Origin: Prochlorococcus marinus str. MIT 9301
GTDB lineage: Bacteria > Cyanobacteriota > Cyanobacteriia > PCC-6307 > Cyanobiaceae
Direction of reading: 5' to 3'
DNA length: 64,000 nt
NCBI RefSeq assembly: GCF_000015965.1
Contig: NC_009091.1
Coordinates: forward strand, 1 to 64,000
Positions 2,040 through 41,479 of the stretch are shown piece by piece (the stretch's first letter is position 1; each line of letters opens with the position of its first letter). The position numbers were made by a program, and so were the translations under genes. Under the pieces are notes generated by a model that worked only from the letters and a program-made list of their open reading frames with translations, searched no databases and was not told the origin of the DNA.

Positions 2040-4379
2040 ATGATAAATCAAGAAAATAATGATCTATATGATCTTAATGAAGCACTACAAGTTGAAAATT
2101 TAACACTTAATGATTACGAAGAAATTTGCAAAAGATTAAAGAAAAAACCTAACAGAACAGAATTAGGCATGTTTGGCGTTATGTGGTCCGAACATTGTTG
2201 TTATAGAAATTCAAAACCTTTACTATCTAAGTTTCCCACTAAAGGTAAAAATGTTTTAGTTGGACCTGGAGAAAATGCTGGAGTTATTGATGTTGGAAAT
2301 AATCAAAAACTTGTTTTTAAAATAGAAAGTCATAATCATCCTTCTGCTATTGAACCTTTTCAAGGAGCAGCAACAGGGGTAGGAGGAATTCTAAGAGATA
2401 TATTTACAATGGGTGCAAGGCCCATTGCAGTCTTGAATTCATTGAGATTCGGCAATCTTGATAAATCATCAAATGTTGATTTACTACGAGGAGTTGTATC
2501 CGGTATTGCACATTATGGAAATTGCGTAGGTGTGCCGACTGTTGGAGGTGAAATTGACTTTGATGATAGTTACTCTGGAAATCCTTTAGTGAATGTTATG
2601 GCTTTAGGACTTTTAGAGACCGAAGAAATCGTTTGTTCTGGAGCTAAAAATGTAGGATCACCAGTCTTATATGTTGGTAATACAACTGGCAGAGATGGTG
2701 TTGGTGGTGCTAGTTTTGCTAGTTCAGAATTAACTACAACTTCATTGGATGATAGACCTGCAGTTCAGGTAGGTGATCCATTTGTTGAGAAAAGTCTTAT
2801 TGAAGCTTGTTTGGATGCTTTCAAGACAGGGGATGTTATTGCAGCTCAAGATATGGGTGCTGCAGGTTTAACATGCAGTAGCGCGGAAATGGCTGCAAAT
2901 GGAAATTTAGGGATTTCAATTGATTTAGATTTGGTCCCTTCCAGAGAAGATGATATGTCTTCATACCAATATTTATTATCTGAATCGCAAGAAAGAATGT
3001 TGTTTGTCGTTAAAGAAGAAAAAATTAATGATCTTATTGAAAAATTTAATAAATGGGGATTATATGCCAGTGTTATTGGTGAAGTGATAGGAACTAATGA
3101 GGTAATTATTTCTCATAAAGGTAAAATTGTGGCTCAAATACCTACTTCTGCCTTATCTGATGATACTCCTGTAAATTTCCATAATGTGATTAATAACCCA
3201 CCCGACGATCTTTTAAATAAATGGGAATGGAAAGAAAATGATTTACCAGAAATTCATGAGCAAAAAATATTTTCATTGAAGGAAAATAAGAAATTTTCTT
3301 TTCAAGAAATCATTTTAAAACTACTTTCTAATCCATCAATAGCTTCTAAACGATGGATTTATAAACAATATGACTCTCAAGTTCAAGCAAATACAGTTTT
3401 TAAACCTGGAAAATCAGATGCAGCCGTAGTAAGACTAAGGGAACAATATAAAAAAAATAAAAGTAAAGTATTTTCTGGTGTCGCTGCTTCAGTTGATTGC
3501 AATAGTAGATGGGTTGCGCTTGATCCTTTTAGAGGATCTATCGCTGCCGTTGCAGAGTCCGCTAGAAACGTTAGTTGTGTTGGTGCTGAACCTGTAGCAA
3601 TTACAAATAATTTAAATTTTTCTTCCCCTGAGAGTGAAATAGGATATTGGCAACTCTCATCTTCATGTAATGGAATTACAGAAGCTTGTAAAGCTTTAGA
3701 AACTCCTGTTACAGGAGGTAATGTATCTTTATATAATGAATCTAAAAACAAAGATAATCTAATTACTCCTATCAATCCTACTCCTGTTATTGGAATGGTT
3801 GGAAAGATAGATAATATCGAAAAAGCTATAAGTTGTGAATGGAAAAATATTGATGATCAAATCTGGTTAATTGGCTCCTATAAATCAGATACGACAATTG
3901 CAGCTAGTTCTTATTTGGAATATTTTCATGGAGAAATTACTGGTCGGCCTCCAAAAATAGATTTGTTGGATGAAAAGTTTTGCCAGAGTTTTTTAAGAAA
4001 TGCGATTTTAAATAGTCTTGTAGTTTCTTCTCACGATATTAGCGATGGCGGTTTAGCTATAGCTTTAGCAGAGTCTTGTATTTTATCTGCAAAAGGTGCA
4101 ACGATAGAATTAAAAAAAGATATAAACAGAGAAGATAATTTATTGTTTGCAGAAGGAGGTTCTAGAATTATTTTTTCAATAAACAAAATTAAACAAAATG
4201 AATGGCTTAATTATTTAAAACAAAATCAAATAAACTTTCCATCAAGTGTATATGTAAAAAAAATAGGACATGTGTCTAGTGAAACTCTTAAGATAAATAT
4301 CCAAGATAAAAATATTTGCAATATTAGGGTTGAGGAATTATCTGAAAAATTTAATAATAGTATTTCAGATTACTTTTAA
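2040..4379 (+). CDS. purL: Phosphoribosylformylglycinamidine synthase subunit II
   Basis: ATP-dependent FGAM synthase, fourth step of de novo purine synthesis. At 779 residues it is the small stand-alone form that works with PurS and PurQ, neither of which is in this window. Visible motifs are MWSEHCCYRNSKPLL near residue 47, ESHNHPSAIEPFQGAATGVGG near 98, the duplicated AIRS-type ATP-binding halves, and VTGGNVSLYNE near 560. Followed 47 bases later by purF on the same strand, so likely one purine operon. Confidence 0.96.
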   Translation: MINQENNDLYDLNEALQVENLTLNDYEEICKRLKKKPNRTELGMFGVMWSEHCCYRNSKPLLSKFPTKGKNVLVGPGENAGVIDVGNNQKLVFKIESHNHPSAIEPFQGAATGVGGILRDIFTMGARPIAVLNSLRFGNLDKSSNVDLLRGVVSGIAHYGNCVGVPTVGGEIDFDDSYSGNPLVNVMALGLLETEEIVCSGAKNVGSPVLYVGNTTGRDGVGGASFASSELTTTSLDDRPAVQVGDPFVEKSLIEACLDAFKTGDVIAAQDMGAAGLTCSSAEMAANGNLGISIDLDLVPSREDDMSSYQYLLSESQERMLFVVKEEKINDLIEKFNKWGLYASVIGEVIGTNEVIISHKGKIVAQIPTSALSDDTPVNFHNVINNPPDDLLNKWEWKENDLPEIHEQKIFSLKENKKFSFQEIILKLLSNPSIASKRWIYKQYDSQVQANTVFKPGKSDAAVVRLREQYKKNKSKVFSGVAASVDCNSRWVALDPFRGSIAAVAESARNVSCVGAEPVAITNNLNFSSPESEIGYWQLSSSCNGITEACKALETPVTGGNVSLYNESKNKDNLITPINPTPVIGMVGKIDNIEKAISCEWKNIDDQIWLIGSYKSDTTIAASSYLEYFHGEITGRPPKIDLLDEKFCQSFLRNAILNSLVVSSHDISDGGLAIALAESCILSAKGATIELKKDINREDNLLFAEGGSRIIFSINKIKQNEWLNYLKQNQINFPSSVYVKKIGHVSSETLKINIQDKNICNIRVEELSEKFNNSISDYF

Positions 4380-4426
4380 ATATGAAAAACATTTCTCAAC
4401 TATTAAAATTTTTAAGATATTAAGTT

Positions 4427-5887
4427 ATGTGCGGAATAGTTGGAATCGTTTCTTCAGATGATGTAAATCAGCAAATTTACGATAGTCTTTTGCTTTTGCA
4501 GCATAGAGGTCAAGATTCAACAGGTATAGCTACAATGGAAAATACTGTTTTCCATATACATAAGGCTAAAGGTCAGGTTAATACTGCTTATAGAACGAGA
4601 GATATGAGGAATTTAATCGGCAAAATTGGATTGGGTCATGTTAGGTATGCAACAAAAGGATCAGCAGAAAGTGTAGAAGAAGCACAGCCTTTTTATGTTA
4701 ATGCTCCTTATGGAATTGTTTTGATACATAATGGAAATTTGACGAACACTAGAGTTCTAGAAAAACAATTATTTAATATTGATAAAAGGCATACAAATTC
4801 TTCAAGTGATACTGAAATGTTGTTAAATGTATTTGCGACAGAATTACAAGAACAAATTCATAATCAAGAATTAGAACCTGATATTATTTTTAGTGCCGTT
4901 AAATCTTTACATAAAAGAATTCAGGGATCATATGCTTCAATTGCATTAATTTCAGGACATGGTTTATTAGCATTCAGAGATCCCTTCGGTATTAGGCCTT
5001 TAGTCATAGGAAAAAGATTTTCGTTAACTACAAAAAAAGAAGAGTGGATGGTTGCTAGCGAATCTCTAGTTCTTGAGAATAACGATTATCAAGTAGTGAG
5101 AGACGTAGATCCTGGAGAAGCTGTTTTTATAAATCTTAATGGTGAGTTTTTTTCTAAGCAATGTTCTGAAAATCCAATGTTATTTCCTTGTTCTTTTGAA
5201 TATGTTTATTTAGCTAGACCAGATTCAATAATGAATGGAATTTCAGTATATAAAGCTCGCTTAAAGATGGGAGATTATTTGGCAGAAACAATAAAACAGA
5301 CAATTAATTCTGGAGACGTTGATGTAGTTATGCCTATTCCTGATTCTTCTAGACCTGCTGCAATGCAAGTTGCAAGACAGTTAGGGATTGAATATAGGGA
5401 GGGTTTTTTTAAAAACAGATATGTTGGCCGAACATTCATAATGCCTGGTCAACAGAAACGTAAGAAATCTGTAAGACAAAAGTTAAATGCAATGAGCGCA
5501 GAGTTTAAAAATAAAAATGTATTAATTGTTGATGACTCGATAGTAAGAGGTACCACTTCAAAAGAAATTGTCCAGATGGCTAAAGATGCAGGAGCAAATA
5601 AGGTTTTCTTCACATCAGCAGCCCCTCCTGTTCGTTTTCCTCATGTTTATGGAATTAATATGCCGAATAGAGATGAATTAATAGCTCATGACAGAACAAT
5701 AGCTGAAATTGCTGATCATCTTTCAATTGATAACCTTGTTTATCAAAGTGTTGAAAGTTTACGGAAATCTATAATAAGTGATTCTCCTATTCAGGATTTG
5801 GAGATGAGTTGCTTTACCGGGTCTTATGTAACCGGAACAGTAAATCAAGAATACTTAAATTGGGTTGAAAATGAATATAAATCTTAG
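4427..5887 (+). CDS. purF: Amidophosphoribosyltransferase
   Basis: First committed step of purine synthesis: transfers ammonia from glutamine to PRPP. The glutaminase nucleophile is Cys2, exposed directly after Met1 (MCGIVGIV), so there is no propeptide to remove. [11 protein letters not shown] near residue 26 and the PRPP-binding loop [14 protein letters not shown] near 365 are intact. Cysteines that ligate an Fe-S cluster in Bacillus-type enzymes appear partly missing: PHVYGIN has His where a Cys is expected, and the C-terminal CxxC is reduced to MSCFTG. It therefore resembles the cluster-free E. coli type. Its 3' end overlaps the convergent topoisomerase gene by four bases. Confidence 0.96.
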
Positions 5888-9266: not shown

Positions 9267-10219
9267 ATATTAGTTTCGTTATTTTTTAGATTTGCTTGTA
9301 TGTTTCTTTTCCACATCCATGGTTTAATTCTTTTTAATGTAGTGCCTTGAAGATTTTCTTTCCAAGTTTCATCGTCCCAAGTTAGGGCATCAATATTAAG
9401 ATTTGTAATCCATTCTTTAGGTGTGGTTTCACAATTATTGTTGAATGGCACTGATTTATTCCATGGGCATACATCTTGACAAATATCACAACCAGCGACC
9501 CATCCATCTAAGTTTTTTTCTATTTTCTTTGGAATAGTTTTGCCTCTGCTCTCTATTGTGTGATATGCAATGCATAGATCCGATTGTATTACAAACGGTT
9601 CTACTATTGCCTTTGTGGGACAATGTTCAATGCACAAATCACATTTCCCACAAAGCGATTGATGAGGTTTATCTGATATTAAATCTTTTGTGAGAATCAT
9701 AAATCCTAAAGTAAACCAAGAACCGTTGTTTTTGCTTATTAAATTACTATTTTTACCTATCCAACCAATCCCTGCCTCCTCAGCCCATGCTTTTTCAAGA
9801 AGCGGAGAGGTATCAACACATATTTTCCATTTGCAATCAGGAATTTCTTTGTTGATCCATTTACCAATATTCTTTAATTTTTTGTGAATCACTTTATGAT
9901 AATCCTCTCCTTGGCCAAATTTAGCTACCTTGAGAAAATTATTATTGTTGTTTTGTGAATTAATGTAAGTATATCCAACGCTTAAAACACTTTTTGCCTC
10001 TTCAAAAAGTGAGCCTATATTTCTTCTCCTTTCTGCTTCCATCCATTTCATTTCTGCATGGTAATTATTTGATAACCATCTTTCTAATGCATTATTTCTT
10101 AATTTTATACGCGAACTACCTGGTATTGAAGCTATTCCAGCAATTGTAAAACCTTCAAAAATAGCTCTTTCTTTTAACTTTTTACTAATTTCTTTTTTGT
10201 CTTGAATCCTATTAATCAT
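9263..10219 (-). CDS. queG: Epoxyqueuosine reductase
   Basis: Cobalamin- and Fe-S-dependent enzyme for the last step of queuosine synthesis in tRNA (epoxyqueuosine to queuosine). Two 4Fe-4S motifs are visible, CGKCDLCIEHCP near residue 188 and CDICQDVCPWN near 243. The conserved DTSPLLEKAWAEEAGIGWIGKNS block near 136 belongs to the B12-binding and active-site region. At 318 residues it is close to the core length and lacks the C-terminal HEAT extension of some homologues. Linked by a four-base overlap to the downstream TPR gene. cbiD in the same window fits the B12 requirement. Confidence 0.93.
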   Translation of the reverse strand: MINRIQDKKEISKKLKERAIFEGFTIAGIASIPGSSRIKLRNNALERWLSNNYHAEMKWMEAERRRNIGSLFEEAKSVLSVGYTYINSQNNNNNFLKVAKFGQGEDYHKVIHKKLKNIGKWINKEIPDCKWKICVDTSPLLEKAWAEEAGIGWIGKNSNLISKNNGSWFTLGFMILTKDLISDKPHQSLCGKCDLCIEHCPTKAIVEPFVIQSDLCIAYHTIESRGKTIPKKIEKNLDGWVAGCDICQDVCPWNKSVPFNNNCETTPKEWITNLNIDALTWDDETWKENLQGTTLKRIKPWMWKRNIQANLKNNETNI

Positions 10220-34858: not shown

Positions 34859-36445
34859 ATGAGTCAAAAATCTTTCAAAAAAGAACGAGATCCTTCAATA
34901 TTAATTTTAGATTTCGGATCTCAATATTCTGAATTGATTGCAAGACGAATTAGAGAAACTAATGTTTTTTCTCTTGTAGTTAGTAATTGTATTTCAATTG
35001 AAGACATCAATGATATAAATCCTAAAGGGATTATTTTAAGTGGAGGCCCGAACTCTGTATATGAACAAAATGCTCCGAAATGTGATAAAAAAATTTTTAA
35101 TTTAGGAATTCCTATTCTTGGCATTTGCTATGGAATGCAATTAATGGTCAAAGAACTTGGAGGGTCAGTTATTTCAGCAACTAAAAAAGCTGAATATGGA
35201 AGAGCACCAATAAATATAGATCAAGAATCTGACCTCCTTCGTGATGTAGAAGATAAATCTATAATGTGGATGAGTCATGGCGATTCAATTAATTGTTTGC
35301 CTGATGGATTTAATAAAATTGCTCATACTGAGAACACACTCCATGCAGCAATTTCAAATGATATAAAGAAATTATTTGGCGTACAATTTCATCCTGAAGT
35401 TGTACATTCAGAGTTTGGGATGAAGATAATTAAAAATTTTGTTTATAACATTTCTTGTTGTGAGGCTGATTGGACAACTGAAACCTACATAGAGGAAACT
35501 ATTCCTAGGATAAGAGAGCAAGTTGGCAATAAAAAAGTTTTGCTTGCCTTGTCAGGAGGAGTTGATTCCTCGACCCTTGCTTTTCTTCTTAATAAAGCAA
35601 TTGGAAATCAGCTTACATGCATGTTTATTGACCAAGGTTTCATGAGAAAAGGCGAACCAGAATTTTTAATGAATTTTTTTGATAAGAAATTTCACATTAA
35701 AGTTGAATATATTAACGCAAGGGAAAGGTTTATTGCCAAATTAAAAGGGATTACTGATCCAGAACAAAAAAGGAAAATTATTGGTGAAGAATTTATTAGA
35801 GTATTTGAAGAAGAAAGTAATAGATTGGGACCTTTTCAGTACTTAGCTCAAGGTACTCTTTATCCTGATGTTATTGAAAGTGCTGGTACTAATATTGATC
35901 CCAAGACTGGTGAAAGAATAGCTGTAAAAATAAAGAGTCATCATAACGTGGGTGGATTGCCAAAAGATTTACAATTTAAATTAGTTGAGCCATTAAGAAA
36001 ACTTTTTAAGGATGAAGTCAGAAAAGTCGGCGGTGCCTTAGGTTTACCGGATGAGATTATAAAAAGGCATCCATTCCCAGGCCCGGGATTAGCTATAAGA
36101 ATTTTGGGCGAGGTGAATAATGAAAAGCTTGATTGTTTAAGAGATGCAGACTGGATAGTAAGAGATGAAATTAAAAAAGCTGGTCTTTACAACGATATTT
36201 GGCAAGCTTTTGCAGTATTGCTACCGGTTAAAACTGTAGGAGTTATGGGAGATAAAAGGACTTATGCATGGCCAATAGTTTTACGTTGCGTATCTAGTGA
36301 AGATGGCATGACAGCAGATTGGTCAAAAATTCCTTTTAAGATTTTGGAGAGGATTGCAAATAGAATCGTAAATGAAGTAATTTCAGTAAATAGAGTTGTA
36401 TATGATATCACGAGCAAACCTCCTGGAACTATTGAATGGGAATGA
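34859..36445 (+). CDS. guaA: GMP synthase (glutamine-hydrolysing)
   Basis: Converts XMP to GMP. Glutaminase domain about 14-200 with nucleophile Cys90 in GICYGMQL and the His/Glu pair in [10 protein letters not shown] near 176. ATP-pyrophosphatase loop ALSGGVDSS near 229. Dimerisation domain to the end, KPPGTIEWE. 528 residues, complete. The last 21 bases recur downstream at 37589 and 39325, which suggests the gene end is an integration site whose coding sense is restored by each insertion. Confidence 0.97.
36425..36445 (+). repeat. guaA 3' end, candidate attachment core copy 1
   Basis: The bases encoding G-T-I-E-W-E plus the TGA stop of guaA. The core ACTATTGAATGGGAATGA resembles 37589-37608 and 39325-39345. 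Across the codons for T-I-E-W-E-stop the three copies differ only synonymously (ATT/ATA, GAA/GAG, TGA/TAA/TAG). Confidence 0.7.
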
Positions 36446-36484
36446 AAAGTAGGGTATAAACCATGTCATAGTCTAGAAAAATTG

Positions 36485-36506
36485 GTTTCACACGAGTTTC
36501 ACATGA
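36485..36506 (+). repeat. Paired 11-bp direct repeat, GTTTCACA type, copy 1
   Basis: GTTTCACACGA followed directly by GTTTCACATGA, a period of exactly 11 bp (about one helical turn). Starts 40 bases after the guaA stop. The bases before it (TCTAGAAAAATTG) also resemble those before the 37500 copy. Confidence 0.75.
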
Positions 36507-36545
36507 GAATCTTTTAACCTATTGGCAAGGGATCTCGATATGGAG

Positions 36546-36567
36546 GTTTCACATAGGTTTCACATGG
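36546..36567 (+). repeat. Paired 11-bp direct repeat, GTTTCACA type, copy 2
   Basis: GTTTCACATAG then GTTTCACATGG, same orientation and same 11-bp period as copy 1, 61 bases further along. Confidence 0.75.
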
Positions 36568-36586
36568 AGGTAAAAATCTATCTCTA

Positions 36587-36617
36587 TAGAGAAATCGTAG
36601 AGTTTGAAATTTCTCTA
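36587..36617. terminator. Hairpin between guaA and the convergent 36630 gene
   Basis: TAGAGAAAT and ATTTCTCTA form a perfect 9-bp stem around a 13-base loop. It lies between convergent genes and could act as a bidirectional terminator, though only a weak T-rich run follows on either strand. Confidence 0.35.
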
Positions 36618-36629
36618 CACCTTAAATAA

Positions 36630-36947
36630 TTAATTGTTTATTTTTTTAATTTTTTCTAAATTCCATTTATCAAATATTAATTTCATTTCTCTTTCGTAGT
36701 GTCTTACTTTCTTCGAGAAAGGTAATGTTTGAATAATTATCCCAAAGGGAAATTTAAAAAAAGAAAAAACATAAACAATATAAAACTCGACAAATGAAGG
36801 TTTTGGTGGAAGAGGTAAATTTTTTATATATGCCCAATCAATGCATGCTTTTAGTTGCTTATCACTTGCAGCAATATTTTTTCTACATCTCCAGTAAGAG
36901 AATAGGTAAATTCCTATAAAAATCGGTAGTGGAAGAAGTCGCAACAT
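36630..36947 (-). CDS. Small membrane protein, unknown
   Basis: 105 residues. Hydrophobic segments at about 2-19 (LRLLPLPIFIGIYLFSYW) and about 51-75 (FVEFYIVYVFSFFKFPFGIIIQ), with a basic C-terminal helix ending NLEKIKKINN. I do not recognise it. It lies within the first module of the guaA-end island, so it is probably cargo. Codon use is like the rest of the genome. Confidence 0.55.
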   Translation of the reverse strand: MLRLLPLPIFIGIYLFSYWRCRKNIAASDKQLKACIDWAYIKNLPLPPKPSFVEFYIVYVFSFFKFPFGIIIQTLPFSKKVRHYEREMKLIFDKWNLEKIKKINN

Positions 36948-37049
36948 TAAATATCAAGGATAATTTTTCTCCTCATTAATTCATATTAAAGTGATAGTTT
37001 ATTTTTTATGAAAATTCCTGATAATACCCCAAAGCAATATCTTTCCTTC

Positions 37050-37203
37050 TTGAAAATAAAATAAGAGGGCATTTGTTTGCCCTCTTCGAGTCTTATGCAC
37101 CTCACTGTCCACAAAGTCGATGAAGTATTTTTGACTCCTGAATTATTTCTACTCCTATTGAATAGAAAAAGATAGTCGTACAAACCACAAAGCACTTCTA
37201 CCC
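37050..37203 (-). ncRNA. Candidate small RNA
   Basis: On the minus strand a -10-like TATTAT (37209-37214) lies just before the palindrome at 37199-37208. About 115-140 bases later there is a strong 9-bp hairpin followed by ATTTTATTTTC. That promoter-to-terminator spacing and the lack of a convincing reading frame suggest an sRNA of about 150 nt. I did not match it to a known family such as 6S, Yfr1 or Yfr2. Confidence 0.35.
37063..37086 (-). terminator. Intrinsic terminator, minus strand
   Basis: AAGAGGGCA and TGCCCTCTT form a perfect 9-bp stem with a 6-base loop. On the minus strand it is followed by ATTTTATTTTC; on the plus strand the following bases (CGAGTCTTATGC) are not T-rich. The GC content of the stem is unusual for this region. 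Confidence 0.6.
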
Positions 37204-37208
37204 GGGTA
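37199..37208. promoter_or_regulatory. Palindrome TACCCGGGTA between the sRNA and the mini-protein gene
   Basis: A perfect 10-bp GC-centred palindrome in very AT-rich DNA. It sits at the inferred start of the minus-strand sRNA and 62 bases upstream of the plus-strand gene at 37271, a position suited to an operator. Confidence 0.35.
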
Positions 37209-37270
37209 ATAATACTCTATGAATTTCAAGTAAATAGGAGGACAATATAGATATAGATCTAGGAGGTCTT

Positions 37271-37453
37271 ATGAAACTATTCAATCAATTTAATGTCCTT
37301 CCAAGATACCTAACTGCATTCAATTATGCAGGGTTAAACTTGAATGAGACTCCACAAGAATTACAAAAATGTACCCCTGAGTTTCAAAACTTTTGGGAGA
37401 AAGAATGTAGAGAACATCCAACTAATCAAAATTGTTTAATTTACTGTGACTGA
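37271..37453 (+). CDS. Four-cysteine mini-protein, unknown
   Basis: 60 residues, preceded by a full AGGAGG Shine-Dalgarno (37261-37266) four bases before the ATG. Such strong sites are rare in this genome and decide the start. Cysteines at 34, 46, 55 and 59 (QKCTPEF, KECREHP, QNCLIYC) could bind a metal or form two disulfides. The N-terminal half (FNQFNVLPRYLTAFNYAGLNL) is amphipathic. No family recognised. Within the first guaA-end module. Confidence 0.65.
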   Translation: MKLFNQFNVLPRYLTAFNYAGLNLNETPQELQKCTPEFQNFWEKECREHPTNQNCLIYCD

Positions 37454-37499
37454 GTAATTAATTTTTAGTTTTTATTAAATAATCTCGATCTAAAAAGTG

Positions 37500-37521
37500 G
37501 TTTCACACGGGTTTCACACGA
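37500..37521 (+). repeat. Paired 11-bp direct repeat, GTTTCACA type, copy 3
   Basis: GTTTCACACGG then GTTTCACACGA, 68 bases before the second guaA-end copy. With copies 1 and 2 just after guaA it frames a segment of about 1 kb. Confidence 0.75.
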
Positions 37522-37588
37522 AATAATATTTAAAATTATGCCTTGAGATGTATTGATATGACTGACTTTTTTTCTTGCTTAAATTTAT

Positions 37589-37608
37589 GGACTATAGAGT
37601 GGGAATAA
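37589..37608 (+). repeat. guaA 3'-end remnant, candidate attachment core copy 2
   Basis: GGACTATAGAGTGGGAATAA. In frame it reads W-T-I-E-W-E-stop when the preceding T is included, against G-T-I-E-W-E-stop in guaA. One base is missing relative to guaA before ACTAT; the T-I-E-W-E-stop codons differ only synonymously. The preceding GATATGACT weakly recalls the guaA sequence for D-I-T, but further homology is unclear. Confidence 0.65.
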
Positions 37609-37789
37609 AGTGAATTTGATAACCGAGTTATAACTACAACTTTTAACTCTCAAACAAAAATAATTCAAATATTAGATTATCTGATGCTAATTGTTTTAAA
37701 AATCAAGTTTTACTTGAGTTCTACAAAACACTTTTAGTTAACTTTAAGAGAAATCGTATTAAGTTTGTTTGTTCTTCTTTATTTTATAT

Positions 37790-39103
37790 TTATATTTTGT
37801 AAAAATTTACTCCAATAATAATTCTATCTTTTTCGCCTTTATAAAATACAGAGTGTTTTCTTTGTGCTGGGAAAATAATTATCAAACCATTAGAAGGAAG
37901 AATTTCCTGATTTGGGTTTTCTAATTTTAAAATTCCTGGCTCATCGCAAGTTTGATCACCAACTGATAGATAATAGACAAGAGAAAACTTTTTTTTAGCA
38001 ATATCTAATCCTTCTATTCTGTCTATTTTATTTAAATGATCGTGACTTACTAAACCACCCCCCGAACGAAATATAGTAAAAAAAGAATCGCTTATAAAGA
38101 TATTTGACTTCAAACTATTTTTTGCAATTACTATTAATTGTTTTTTAAAACTATCTATACTTACCTCACTCCTCTCGAATAACTTGTAATCTGAACCTAT
38201 AGCATCGCCGAAAGTTGGGAATTGATATATTTCTTGGTTTCTGGCTTTTATCTTGTATAAGCATTCAACGAGTTTCTTGTCTACTGGCAGATTTAAAGTA
38301 ATGAGATTTGAATTTGAGTTAGATTTCGTGAAAGAGCTCACCGAACTATTTTTTTCAGAGTCTTTATTATTAACAGTTAGTTCTTGTTGAAAAATACTTA
38401 ATAATAATTTGTTAGTTCTATTTTTCTTATCAAAGTAATTTGCTTTAACTATACATTTGACAGCTGAATTTATATCTTTTAAAAGATATAAACATATTCC
38501 TAAATCCCTGTGAGCCTCAAAAAAATTTGGTTTAAGTTTTATTGCTTTTTTTAGTGATATTGCTGCTTCAGATAACTTCTTTAAGTCTCTTAAAATATTT
38601 CCTAAATTATAATATGCATTTGCGTATTCAGGATTAAGTTCTATAGCTTTACGAGTAGATAATTCTGCTTCCTTCAATTTTCCAAGAGAATTTAATATTC
38701 CTCCAAGATTCGAATGTAATTCTGCTTCTTTAGGATTAAGTTCAATAGCTTTACGAATAAATAATTCTGCTTCCTTCAATTTTCCAAGAGAGTTTAATAT
38801 GCCTCCAAGATTTGAATATCCCAATGCATAGTGGGGATTAAGTTCTATAGCTTTACGAGTAGATAATTCTGCTTCCTTCAATTTTCCAAGTCCCTTTAGT
38901 ATTAATCCATAATTAGAAAAAACCCTATGATCTTCCACACCTTGAATTATTAGATATTGATAATATTTTGCTGCTTCTGCAATATTTCCTTGTGAATGAA
39001 ATTGAAATGCTTTACCTAATACTTGTTCTTTAGAACGGTTAATTTTTTTGTTGTTTCTATTTAGTTTTTTATGAAATTGATCCTCATTTTCAAAAACTTT
39101 CAT
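37790..39103 (-). CDS. TPR protein with C-terminal 2OG-Fe(II) oxygenase-like domain
   Basis: 437 residues. Residues about 30-235 are six TPR units, three of them nearly identical (LNSLGKLKEAELSTRKAIELNP type). A polar linker (about 245-275) leads to a C-terminal double-stranded beta-helix (about 290-437). There SHDHLN near 359 supplies the first metal ligands, PAQRKHSVF near 415 the distal His, and KDRIIIGVNF the 2-oxoglutarate Arg. This layout resembles TPR-linked putative hydroxylases of unknown substrate. The N-terminal TPR part is paralogous to the neighbour at 39429-40937. Cargo of the second guaA-end module. Confidence 0.8.
   Translation of the reverse strand: MKVFENEDQFHKKLNRNNKKINRSKEQVLGKAFQFHSQGNIAEAAKYYQYLIIQGVEDHRVFSNYGLILKGLGKLKEAELSTRKAIELNPHYALGYSNLGGILNSLGKLKEAELFIRKAIELNPKEAELHSNLGGILNSLGKLKEAELSTRKAIELNPEYANAYYNLGNILRDLKKLSEAAISLKKAIKLKPNFFEAHRDLGICLYLLKDINSAVKCIVKANYFDKKNRTNKLLLSIFQQELTVNNKDSEKNSSVSSFTKSNSNSNLITLNLPVDKKLVECLYKIKARNQEIYQFPTFGDAIGSDYKLFERSEVSIDSFKKQLIVIAKNSLKSNIFISDSFFTIFRSGGGLVSHDHLNKIDRIEGLDIAKKKFSLVYYLSVGDQTCDEPGILKLENPNQEILPSNGLIIIFPAQRKHSVFYKGEKDRIIIGVNFYKI
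38631..38890 (-). repeat. Three 102-bp TPR-coding repeats
   Basis: A 56-base block recurs at 38631-38686, 38733-38788 and 38835-38890 with only a few substitutions, spaced exactly 102 bp (34 codons). High DNA identity implies recent duplication or gene conversion of TPR units. Confidence 0.85.
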
Positions 39104-39265
39104 TCTCTAGTAATAATGTTCAATTAAGTTTTGATTATAATTGTATAATTTTTTAGCAACTATCGAATATTGTTTTTTAAATGTCAAAATTTTGATTTCA
39201 CTAACTAATTTTCTACAGTTAATTCAAAAACTTAGTTGTATTTACATAATGTTGGAATAAGTCGT

Positions 39266-39283
39266 TTTGTCATAGGTTTGTCA
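39266..39283 (+). repeat. Paired 11-bp repeat, TTTGTCA type, copy 1
   Basis: TTTGTCATAGG then TTTGTCACGCA with an 11-bp period, part of a 30-base block matching 41069-41098 at about 22 positions. It lies 41 bases before the third guaA-end copy. Confidence 0.65.
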
Positions 39284-39324
39284 CGCAAAAACCCATCTCT
39301 GCTGTAATGTGGGATTAGATTAAT

Positions 39325-39345
39325 GGAACTATTGAGTGGGAGTAG
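39325..39345 (+). repeat. guaA 3'-end remnant, candidate attachment core copy 3
   Basis: The core ACTATTGAGTGGGAGTAG preceded by GGA reads G-T-I-E-W-E-stop in frame, exactly the guaA C-terminus. It differs from guaA at three bases, all synonymous (two GAA to GAG, stop TGA to TAG). Confidence 0.7.
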
Positions 39346-39428
39346 TTCCAAAACAATTTGTAAGTCAGAGTCTAGGTTTAGTCGTTTTTTAGCATATGCC
39401 TTCTTTATATGCAAAAATTATTTCTTGA

Positions 39429-40937
39429 TTAGTATTTAAGGTCTTTATATTTTTTCTTTTTAGTAATGATTTCCATCGCAGGTTTAAGCATCTCTTTGTA
39501 GTTTTTCCATCCTCCTAATGATTTTGTGTTAATTGGTGAACGAACCTGAACATTACTTCTTGTTGAGACTCTTCGTTTATTTAAATGTGGCGATAAATAT
39601 AAATCATTCCAGTTCCAACCTAACCAATGAATCAACGATTTTATTTCATCTAAGGGATGAGTCACTAACTTATCGTAATTTAATGAATATATATGATTTT
39701 TAAATTCTTTCTTATATGTTCTCATAATCTCATCTTGATCAGAATAGACTTCGGCAGAATCAACCAAACTCGAAGAGAAATTATTCCCTGTTGCGAAATG
39801 TGCTCTATAAGTTGACAGAATGTTATCTAAAGGATTTCTATAACAATGTATTATTTTTGCATTAGGAATTGCTTTGGCAATTATGCCTGCATATTGATAA
39901 TTAAATAACCATTTGTTTGTTGTGATTGTTTTACTATCATTTATTTCTAATTTTTTCCAATATATCTCGCTTAGACTTTTTTGTTTTTTAGATTGTTTAT
40001 ATTCTCTATATGATTCTTCAAAGATATTAATTTCTCCAAGATCTTTTACTTTAGTATTTAAACTTATTATTGATTCGACAAGGGTAGAACCACATCTAGG
40101 CAAACCTACTATAAAAATGGACATTGAATAATTTTCAAATTTTTGATTATTGCTTTTATAGTTATCTGAGGAAATTTTTAATTTTTTAGTTTTATCAATT
40201 AATAAATCTACCTCGGATTTATGCATACTTAGTTTCATATTATTTGCATTAACAAGATTTTCAGCACTTTCTTTATATTGTCCTTTTCTATGAAAAATAT
40301 TTGATCTTGCGAAAAAAATATTCACTAACTCTCTATTGTTTTTATTTCTTAAAATGTTTTCAGAAAAAAGTTGATTGTGCCATTTTTGAGGTGTTTTACT
40401 TGTTTGTATAGTTGATAGTGATAAATATGCATCAGTTAATTGAGGATCAACTTCAAGTGCTTTTTGAGTATATGACTCTGCCTCTTTTAATCTGCCTTGA
40501 TCTTTTAATATGAAACCAAGATTATAGTGAGCAATAGCAAAGTCTGATTTAAGTTTAATTGCTTTTTTGAGTTCTAATTCTGCTTTTTCCAAATTCCCTT
40601 GACCTATGAATAAAACTGCAAGATTGTAGTAAGCATTTGCATATTCAGGATTTAGAGAAATTGCCTTTTTAAGTTTTGATTCTGATTCTTTATGTTTTCC
40701 GATCTCGTTAAGGAATATTCCATAATTAGAAAAAACTCGACAGTCTTTTATTCCTTGTTTAATAAGATATTCATAGTATTTTGCTGCTTCTGACTTCCTT
40801 CCTTGTGCCTGAAGATAGAATGCTTTTTGTATCAATTGATCGTTATTTAATTTCTGTTTATTTTTTGAAATTTTTTCTTTCTTTGATTGGTTCTTTTCGC
40901 CAAAACCTTTCATTTTTAATAAAGATAATTTCTTCAT
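39429..40937 (-). CDS. TPR protein with C-terminal sulfotransferase domain
   Basis: 502 residues. Residues about 32-175 hold four TPR units, closely similar to the neighbour at 37790-39103 (KAFYLQAQGRKSEAAKYYEYLIKQGIKDCRVFSNYG). Residues about 270-490 form a PAPS-dependent sulfotransferase: the 5'-phosphosulfate loop FIVGLPRCGSTLVESII near 274, KIIHCYRNPLDNILSTYR near 361 for the 3'-phosphate, and YDKLVTHPLDEIKSLIHWLG near 420. Such TPR-sulfotransferases are frequent in picocyanobacteria; the acceptor, perhaps a cell-surface polymer or peptide, is unknown. Confidence 0.85.
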   Translation of the reverse strand: MKKLSLLKMKGFGEKNQSKKEKISKNKQKLNNDQLIQKAFYLQAQGRKSEAAKYYEYLIKQGIKDCRVFSNYGIFLNEIGKHKESESKLKKAISLNPEYANAYYNLAVLFIGQGNLEKAELELKKAIKLKSDFAIAHYNLGFILKDQGRLKEAESYTQKALEVDPQLTDAYLSLSTIQTSKTPQKWHNQLFSENILRNKNNRELVNIFFARSNIFHRKGQYKESAENLVNANNMKLSMHKSEVDLLIDKTKKLKISSDNYKSNNQKFENYSMSIFIVGLPRCGSTLVESIISLNTKVKDLGEINIFEESYREYKQSKKQKSLSEIYWKKLEINDSKTITTNKWLFNYQYAGIIAKAIPNAKIIHCYRNPLDNILSTYRAHFATGNNFSSSLVDSAEVYSDQDEIMRTYKKEFKNHIYSLNYDKLVTHPLDEIKSLIHWLGWNWNDLYLSPHLNKRRVSTRSNVQVRSPINTKSLGGWKNYKEMLKPAMEIITKKKKYKDLKY

Positions 40938-41479
40938 AGCTAGTATAGTCTTTACAAAAATTTTTTTTATATTTTTCTTAGTTAAATAAAGATTTAATTT
41001 AGTTGCAATTTCTAACGAATTCTCCAGAAATTAATAAAAAATTATCTTGATTTATATAGTTTGAGGGATCAGTATGTTTGTTATGTCTTTGTCATGCAAA
41101 ATTCAACCCTAATGAGCGCGGGATTAGAAAAATAGTTCTGCTTGTGTTATCGATAATTTATTTAAGCGAAGAGTAAGTTACATAATTAAGTATATATTTG
41201 TGATTTTGTTTAGTAATGCATCCTTAAAATCTTTAAGTCATCTCTTCGAGATAGATTAAATTTTATAGAAATTACTCATAGTTAAAATGATTATTCCATA
41301 AGATATTCGTTATACGTCAAAAGTCCTGTGATAGCATAAACTCGTCACTAAAATATTTGTAATCACTTCAAGGGTCAAAAACTACTTGCAAATCTAATTA
41401 TTTACTAGATGTTGTTTATCAAATTTTTAAAAATTTAAACTTTTTAAGCAAAAAAGCTTTGAAATGAGATTTAAATAAA
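40938..41479. other. 542-base gap between divergent accessory genes
   Basis: Contains the second TTTGTCA pair (41077-41094) and GGGATTAGA block (41120-41128) upstream of the TPR-sulfotransferase gene. Further right are a short hairpin ATCTC-TTC-GAGAT (41240-41252) and an AAGC-A6-GCTT stem just before the nuclease gene. I see no gene, tRNA or clear guaA-end core here. Confidence 0.5.
41077..41094 (+). repeat. Paired 11-bp repeat, TTTGTCA type, copy 2
   Basis: TTTGTTATGTC then TTTGTCATGCA, 11-bp period, in a block matching 39261-39290. Located about 140 bases upstream of the TPR-sulfotransferase start, as copy 1 is about 160 bases upstream of the TPR-oxygenase start. Confidence 0.6.

Follow-up and report, generated by a model that had tools for sequence, protein, structure and literature searches.

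The three pairs of head-to-tail 11-bp repeats behind guaA of Prochlorococcus marinus str. MIT 9301 very likely serve as arm-type sites, to be bound by the N-terminal domain of a lambda-like tyrosine integrase that has the 3′ end of guaA as its core target, as judged from sequence comparison. They reside in a 1.16-kb, integrase-less unit (unit A, 36446-37608) of the window, i.e., the whole analyzed stretch of 64,000 nucleotides (positions 1 to 64,000 of NC_009091.1). The direct basis is provided by (i) the geometry of the sites, (ii) the concordance of the repeat words (arm words) at the ends of a unit, (iii) a step in sequence identity at the core, (iv) empty loci in relatives, and (v) an integrase with the same arm word at guaA in another genome.

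The 528-aa ORF at 34859-36445 (+ strand), which we take to be guaA (GMP synthetase) from family features and an earlier label, served as query for finding guaA in relatives. Its last codons form the left core (attL core; GGAACTATTGAATGGGAATGA, 36425-36445, +), the GARTGGGA part of which reads GAATGGGA (36434-36441) and is one base off GAGTGGGA. Downstream follow, all on the + strand, the putative arm-type doublets L1 (GTTTCACACGA GTTTCACATGA, 36485-36506, at +57 from the A of ACTATTG) and L2 (GTTTCACATAG GTTTCACATGG, 36546-36567, at +118) and a conserved palindromic box (TCTCTATAGAGAAATCGTAGA, 36581-36601, at +153). The putative doublet R (GTTTCACACGG GTTTCACACGA, 37500-37521, +) is placed at -91 from ACTATAG of the right core (GGACTATAGAGTGGGAATAA, 37589-37608, +), which holds GAGTGGGA exactly (37597-37604) and serves both as attR of unit A and as left core of the adjacent unit B. 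The cargo consists of a 105-aa ORF (36630-36947, -), apparently a membrane protein as judged by eye, and a 60-aa ORF (37271-37453, +); both are without match in Pfam or PHROGs, and the latter resembles the C-terminal region of an ORF of 92 aa in locus L114. All three GTTTCACAYRR doublets named in the preliminary description were recovered with 0 mismatches, on one strand and with 11-bp period, and the second guaA-like end reported there corresponds to the right core. The actual borders of the 1-kb segment, said there to be framed by the doublets, are the guaA-like cores at 36425 and 37589.

Unit A is followed by two further units. Unit B (37609-39345), the left arms of which appear eroded by eye, carries a gene for a TPR protein (37790-39103, -), an eroded R doublet with another word (GTTTTGTCATA GGTTTGTCACG, 39264-39285) and, at its right end, a third core copy (39325-39345). 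Within the TPR gene, three repeats at 102-bp spacing share 79-82 % identity with the first (38590-38918 of the window). Unit C (39346-41165; borders set by eye, the right limit being approximate as its core is too eroded to score) is decayed and contains a TPR-sulfotransferase gene (39429-40937, -) and an eroded doublet (41076-41097). The right border of the integration locus is formed by a PD-(D/E)XK-family gene (PF12705, 41480-42193, +).

The layout was mapped in stretches from 20 other doublet-positive genomes (G258, one of the 22, being without a larger stretch). The distances core-L1 (+57), core-L2 (+118) and R-core (-91) are mostly constant across these relatives, with differing cargo. 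Units with the word GTTTCACAYR and both ends found measure 0.88 to 6.2 kb from core to core, and the two cores of L109 are only 140 bp apart; in this collapsed unit (G096, cores at 9956 and 10096) one doublet lies in between. Other units display other arm words at similar places, e.g., GTTTCCCGT, GTTTCACGT, GTTTGTCACG, GTTTGTTGCG, GTTTCCCTY and GTTACACGT, and elements on one shared core employ at least 9 different arm words. Within 28 paired units, chosen by hand from the mapped loci as were the junctions (19 left, 12 right) and 40 left ends considered below, the words of L1, L2 and R are concordant (each of the three pairings reached in 0/20000 shuffles); for L1 and R, 17.39 of 20 bases match as compared to 14.15 after shuffling, an excess inflated by related units among the 28. 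A recognisable L1, L2 or R is missing in several of these units. Ends with different words occur in 2 of the 28, the second unit of L116 and L135 (G182), which are perhaps fusions of neighbours or units with missed cores. The palindromic box is present with up to 4 mismatches in 35 of the 40 left ends, 27 times at +151 to +154. Since it is retained also in most integrase-less units examined, this suggests a role in cis, perhaps as excisionase or regulator site or as element of the int promoter.

Comparison of 11 GTTTCACAYR units located directly after guaA with 8 located later in an array reveals an identity of 0.19-0.34 upstream and of 0.80-0.91 from the left core on, GARTGGGA being invariant or nearly so across the compared left cores. 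At the 12 right cores the step is weaker (0.56-0.72 before, 0.45-0.47 after). Among 60 genomes searched, 56 had matches, and the best 30 guaA loci of these 56, including that of the window, were inspected. Ten of the 30 are empty, i.e., guaA is followed by the PD-(D/E)XK gene after a gap of 71-79 bp, and in three further loci the gap amounts to 202-218 bp. Recognisable L1 and L2 doublets were present in 10 and 8 of these best 30 loci, respectively, as compared to 2 of 600 background windows. Since the 11-bp-doublet detector passes over eroded and displaced arms, the numbers of doublets recognised in these loci and in the mapped units are lower bounds. Among the sampled genomes the locus behind guaA is variable; some have no unit there, others several in an array.

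In the array of genome G185, a 454-aa tyrosine recombinase is encoded directly 3′ of guaA. Five strong matches to this integrase (itself included) exist in 266 genomes of the genus, all five directly after guaA; six weak matches (21-24 % identity) in five genomes including G238 were kept apart from them. A search of 400 family genomes (E ≤1e-40) yielded 14 matches, 10 of them behind guaA, the other four representing one truncated copy without guaA in its stretch and three distant relatives (~25-27 % identity). With G113 common to both sets, 14 integrase genes are located behind guaA in Prochlorococcus and the family, two of which are broken (internal stop in G341; truncation and internal stop in G475). 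A truncated copy of the guaA integrase (L028:6190-6580, first 81 residues aligned) lies behind a core with GTTCCACGTG arms. Eight arm words precede the 14 genes in much the same layout: GTTTCACAC (G276), GTTTCCCGT (G185), GTCTCACCC (G177), GTTTGTTGC (G113), GATCACACA (G147, G182, G341), GTTTCACGT (G517, G514), GTTTCACCY (G449, G475) and GACTACCCC (G508, G555, G274). The repeat is displaced by ~20 bases in G182 and G341, and the first doublet of G514 is degenerate. An origin from phages was considered and rejected: the G185 integrase matched none of 50,697 phage records and nothing in IMG/VR, and none of the 197 IMG/VR stretches matching the pattern of a six-integrase alignment was confirmed. 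Searching plasmids with the integrase of Prochlorococcus AG-409-O23 returned one weak match, from Rhizobium (23.4 % identity).

This AG-409-O23 integrase (genome G276, loci L019/L162, gene at L019:1591-2979 on the minus strand; 462 aa, PF00589) is encoded directly downstream of guaA and is the only one found with the word of the window. Its element has this word also at the same offsets as the window (L1, GTTTCACACGA GTTTCACATAG; L2, GTTTCACACGA GTTTCACA; R, GTTTCACACGA GTTTCACACAG), measures 8.8 kb and holds further genes, the products of which match PF23343 (Rep-like protein), PF00239 (serine recombinase) and, with 665 aa, PHROG 28855.

From this arrangement we infer the following course of events. 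The integrase would bind doublets at both ends, L1 and L2 at one and R at the other, bridging them to the cores, with strand exchange inside the guaA-like core. As each insertion would restore the end of guaA and leave a new core copy to its right, arrays would grow, and repeated insertion at the same core would result in the tandem array guaA-A-B-C. Unit A is regarded as integrase-less, since its ORFs include no integrase gene, no recombinase is encoded nearby, and the only PF00589 gene of the MIT 9301 genome (389 aa, of a kind present in most of 22 genomes searched) is far off at 479556. With putative att sites and palindromic box retained, unit A may still be mobile in MIT 9301 and would then depend on mobilisation in trans by an incoming cognate integrase, e.g., that of AG-409-O23, or on co-excision with a neighbour.

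Unit A might instead be a fixed relic, which holds its att sites by descent, does not move and owes the shared ends to homologous recombination at the guaA locus. Although rather unlikely, this would agree with the finding that no homologue of the guaA integrase is encoded in the MIT 9301 genome at E 1e-8, with the eroded ends of units B and C, and with collapsed units in some relatives (140 bp in L109). However, decay has affected the neighbours but none of the three doublets and neither core of unit A, and the same unit type occurs first or later in the arrays of different genomes, with the identity step positioned at the core. These points still leave room for a loss of mobility in MIT 9301 itself.

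Tandem sites one helical turn apart would also suit dimeric regulators, and where an element bears an integrase gene, its doublets and palindromic box are located upstream of this gene, making a regulatory side role possible. It is nevertheless very improbable that a transcription regulator of the small ORFs or guaA uses the doublets as operators. In the genome-wide motif search proposed in the preliminary description, the three doublets of the window are the only matches with up to 3 mismatches in the whole MIT 9301 genome (1,641,879 bases; one match for the reversed-pattern control), hence limited to one locus and not scattered. Furthermore, their places are mostly fixed relative to the core though the cargo differs, one doublet resides at the opposite end of the unit, immediately ahead of the second core, and the words are concordant across the sites of a unit. 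The single locus, the mostly fixed core distances and the AG-409-O23 integrase also support the original proposal of integrase arm-type sites belonging to a mobile unit. As for the clustering near islands or tyrosine recombinases suggested along with it, doublets are indeed found beside the integrase behind guaA in AG-409-O23, but there is no recombinase near those of MIT 9301.

Exact doublets are present in 22 of the 266 genomes of the genus (that of the window counted; reversed-pattern control, 0), and their search in the GTDB contig collection retrieved 41 stretches, 33 from Prochlorococcus and 8 from scattered taxa. The 8 stretches are taken as chance-level, because ~7.5 matches are expected for the pattern in 257 Gb with uniform bases. 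Of the Prochlorococcus stretches, 30 of 33 also contain a core resembling the guaA 3′ end (up to 4 of 21 mismatches), as compared to 0 of the 8 others, and also the single doublet match in IMG/VR is without such a core. A chance or low-complexity repeat without tie to mobility, with which the 8 matches in unrelated taxa would agree, is therefore practically ruled out by this association with the guaA core, by the empty reversed-pattern control in the 266 genomes, and by shuffling of the window (n = 100; mean of 0.01 doublets), which never produced the observed three.

Lambda-type integrases possess an N-terminal arm-binding domain, and their attachment sites contain arm-type integrase sites. 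Across the 12 intact guaA integrases, integrases with more similar L1 regions also tend to share more of residues 1-95 (rho 0.59 for L1 similarity against identity, 0/5000 permutations); the correlation is lower for the catalytic part (0.47, 1/5000) and the core-binding part (0.33, 58/5000), on the basis of 12 related sequences and of permutations that leave shared descent in. The N-terminal correlation amounts to 0.49 (2/5000) with the catalytic part allowed for and to 0.57 (3/5000) with near-copies removed (10 sequences). Within the 8-member main clade, the N-terminal value is 0.55 (150/5000) and those of the other two parts are 0.01 and 0.16; a version with hand-typed words gave 0.63 for the N-terminal, 0.16 for the core-binding and 0.29 for the catalytic part. 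Arm-word similarity thus tracks the predicted N-terminal domain better than the other parts of the integrase.

Modelled with AlphaFold (mean pLDDT 74, pTM 0.48, i.e., a moderate model), the AG-409-O23 integrase has a predicted N-terminal sheet-and-helix domain and aligns to lambda Int (1z1b_B) with Z 16.2 and rmsd 9.7 Å over 325 residues (model 8-440), the VIA-align rows covering mostly residues 96-440 and the N-terminal domain being probed mainly by the lambda Int rows. The head-to-tail pairs, the link between word and N-terminus and the lambda Int-like model together support the reading of the doublets as putative arm-type sites. Characteristics of a lambda-like three-domain tyrosine recombinase are found in the AG-409-O23 relative (PF00589, the moderate model, and the invariant residues R278, K319, R390, H391 and Y422, which have catalytic roles) and not in the window; having no integrase gene of its own, unit A is therefore not an autonomous lambda-like integrase element.

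One may speculate that the arm words function as interchangeable address tags, with many elements sharing the guaA core yet remaining independent, since each integrase would pair only ends of its own word, and with integrase-less units persisting because they display the address of an autonomous element and borrow its integrase in trans; this is quite conceivable, if somewhat short of probable. If true, N-terminal domains and words would form a natural code by which arm-type DNA is recognised. The co-occurrence of related integrases, one core and many arm words renders such an arm-recognition code directly testable.

Genomic islands at guaA elsewhere use 5′-GAGTGGGA-3′ at the 3′ end of the gene (PMC9376610; PMC7775301), and for GIsul2 (PMC9376610) and ICERspD18B (PMC7775301) excision and integration at this site were shown by experiment. 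The units described here resemble both in the probable integrase-mediated insertion at the guaA 3′ end with the 8-bp consensus GAGTGGGA, and the repeat of ICERspD18B (ACAATNGAGTGGGAATNNTT; PMC7775301) suits several cyanobacterial cores. For unit A, insertion at this place is indicated by the left core one base off the consensus, the exact right core, the identity step and the empty loci. In GIsul2, moreover, att sites occur in tandem (attL/attLR/attR), and its integrase also moves a smaller unit (PMC9376610); no mention of arm sites was found in this source. According to PMC7775301, citing Song et al. 2012, guaA islands often carry P4-type integrases. The cargo of GIsul2 and ICERspD18B includes resistance genes, unlike that of unit A, and the likeness drawn here concerns the site, not kinship of the integrases. 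Arm-type sites have precedents in mycobacteriophages, where putative pairs flank the core, and in ICEMlSymR7A with five arm motifs in a 283-bp attP (PMC10865867, PMC11963761). The units behind guaA differ from such lambda-type sites by having six repeat copies, arranged as three 11-bp doublets whose offsets are mostly fixed, and at least 9 words among elements on one core.

CIMEs (cis-mobilizable elements) are integrase-less units with attL and attR that accrete in tandem and are co-excised with a neighbour (PMC5704250, PMC3146451). Unit A resembles them in being without integrase, in keeping attL and attR, and in its tandem position behind one target gene. Close parallels are the ssrA islands of Dehalococcoides, 15 of which have no integration module; unlike the guaA units, they use a serine recombinase (PMC5704250, PMC3146451). 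By description CIMEs are decay products of ICEs or IMEs, whereas the same-word element of AG-409-O23 shows replication-type genes. In unit A, two small unmatched ORFs and no integration or transfer genes are located between intact putative att ends.

Prochlorococcus reportedly harbours the tycheposons of Hackl et al. 2023. Like the guaA elements, these are integrative elements with tyrosine recombinase and cargo, but their border is one of 7 tRNA genes and their length is 4-200 kb (PMC10872708). In the window, guaA constitutes the border and no tRNA gene is present, and a separate Rfam search of the window gave 0 matches at gathering scores; the 1.16-kb unit A is without recombinase, and the 8.8-kb AG-409-O23 element has one. 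There are precedents for elements at guaA, for pairs of arm-type sites, for accretion in tandem and for units bounded by att sites but devoid of integrase. No account of the guaA element family of Prochlorococcus or of the combination of many arm words with one core was found in the open-licence PMC literature searched; the accessible passages of PMC7775301 refer to Prochlorococcus only by citing a paper on tRNA 3′ ends, and those of PMC5974335 list guaA only in a table of nucleotide-biosynthesis genes. In Prochlorococcus, the gene exchange of which is a much-studied subject, the present data define the ends, the target and the probable integrase for a family of very small mobile units, and account for the variable locus behind guaA.

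Concerning the cargo, matches to pieces of unit A exist in 256 of the 266 genomes of the genus (two candidates scored per genome in a first look), and many of the matches listed are located away from guaA; the small genes of unit A therefore seem to be widespread in the genus. Its part with the 105-aa ORF occurs only once in the MIT 9301 genome. The intergenic segment at ~37058-37278 is without Rfam match and has two diverged copies at G000:C1:1341393 (85 %) and 1133649 (74 %). Another guaA unit, with GTTTCACGTG arms (L106, genome G065, core 721 to core 7875), contains mreB-like and murA-like genes (L106:1187-2305 and 2982-4604, matching PF06723 and PF00275), which are normally core genes; the G065 assembly is 65 % complete. 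Distant tyrosine integrases (~23 % identity) in L136 (G137) and L145 (G009) are accompanied by GTTGAAAATGA doublets with 11-bp period, located ~0.4 kb before the integrase gene and ~5 kb beyond, with no tRNA in these stretches. The doublet style may be more general among integrative elements of Prochlorococcus.
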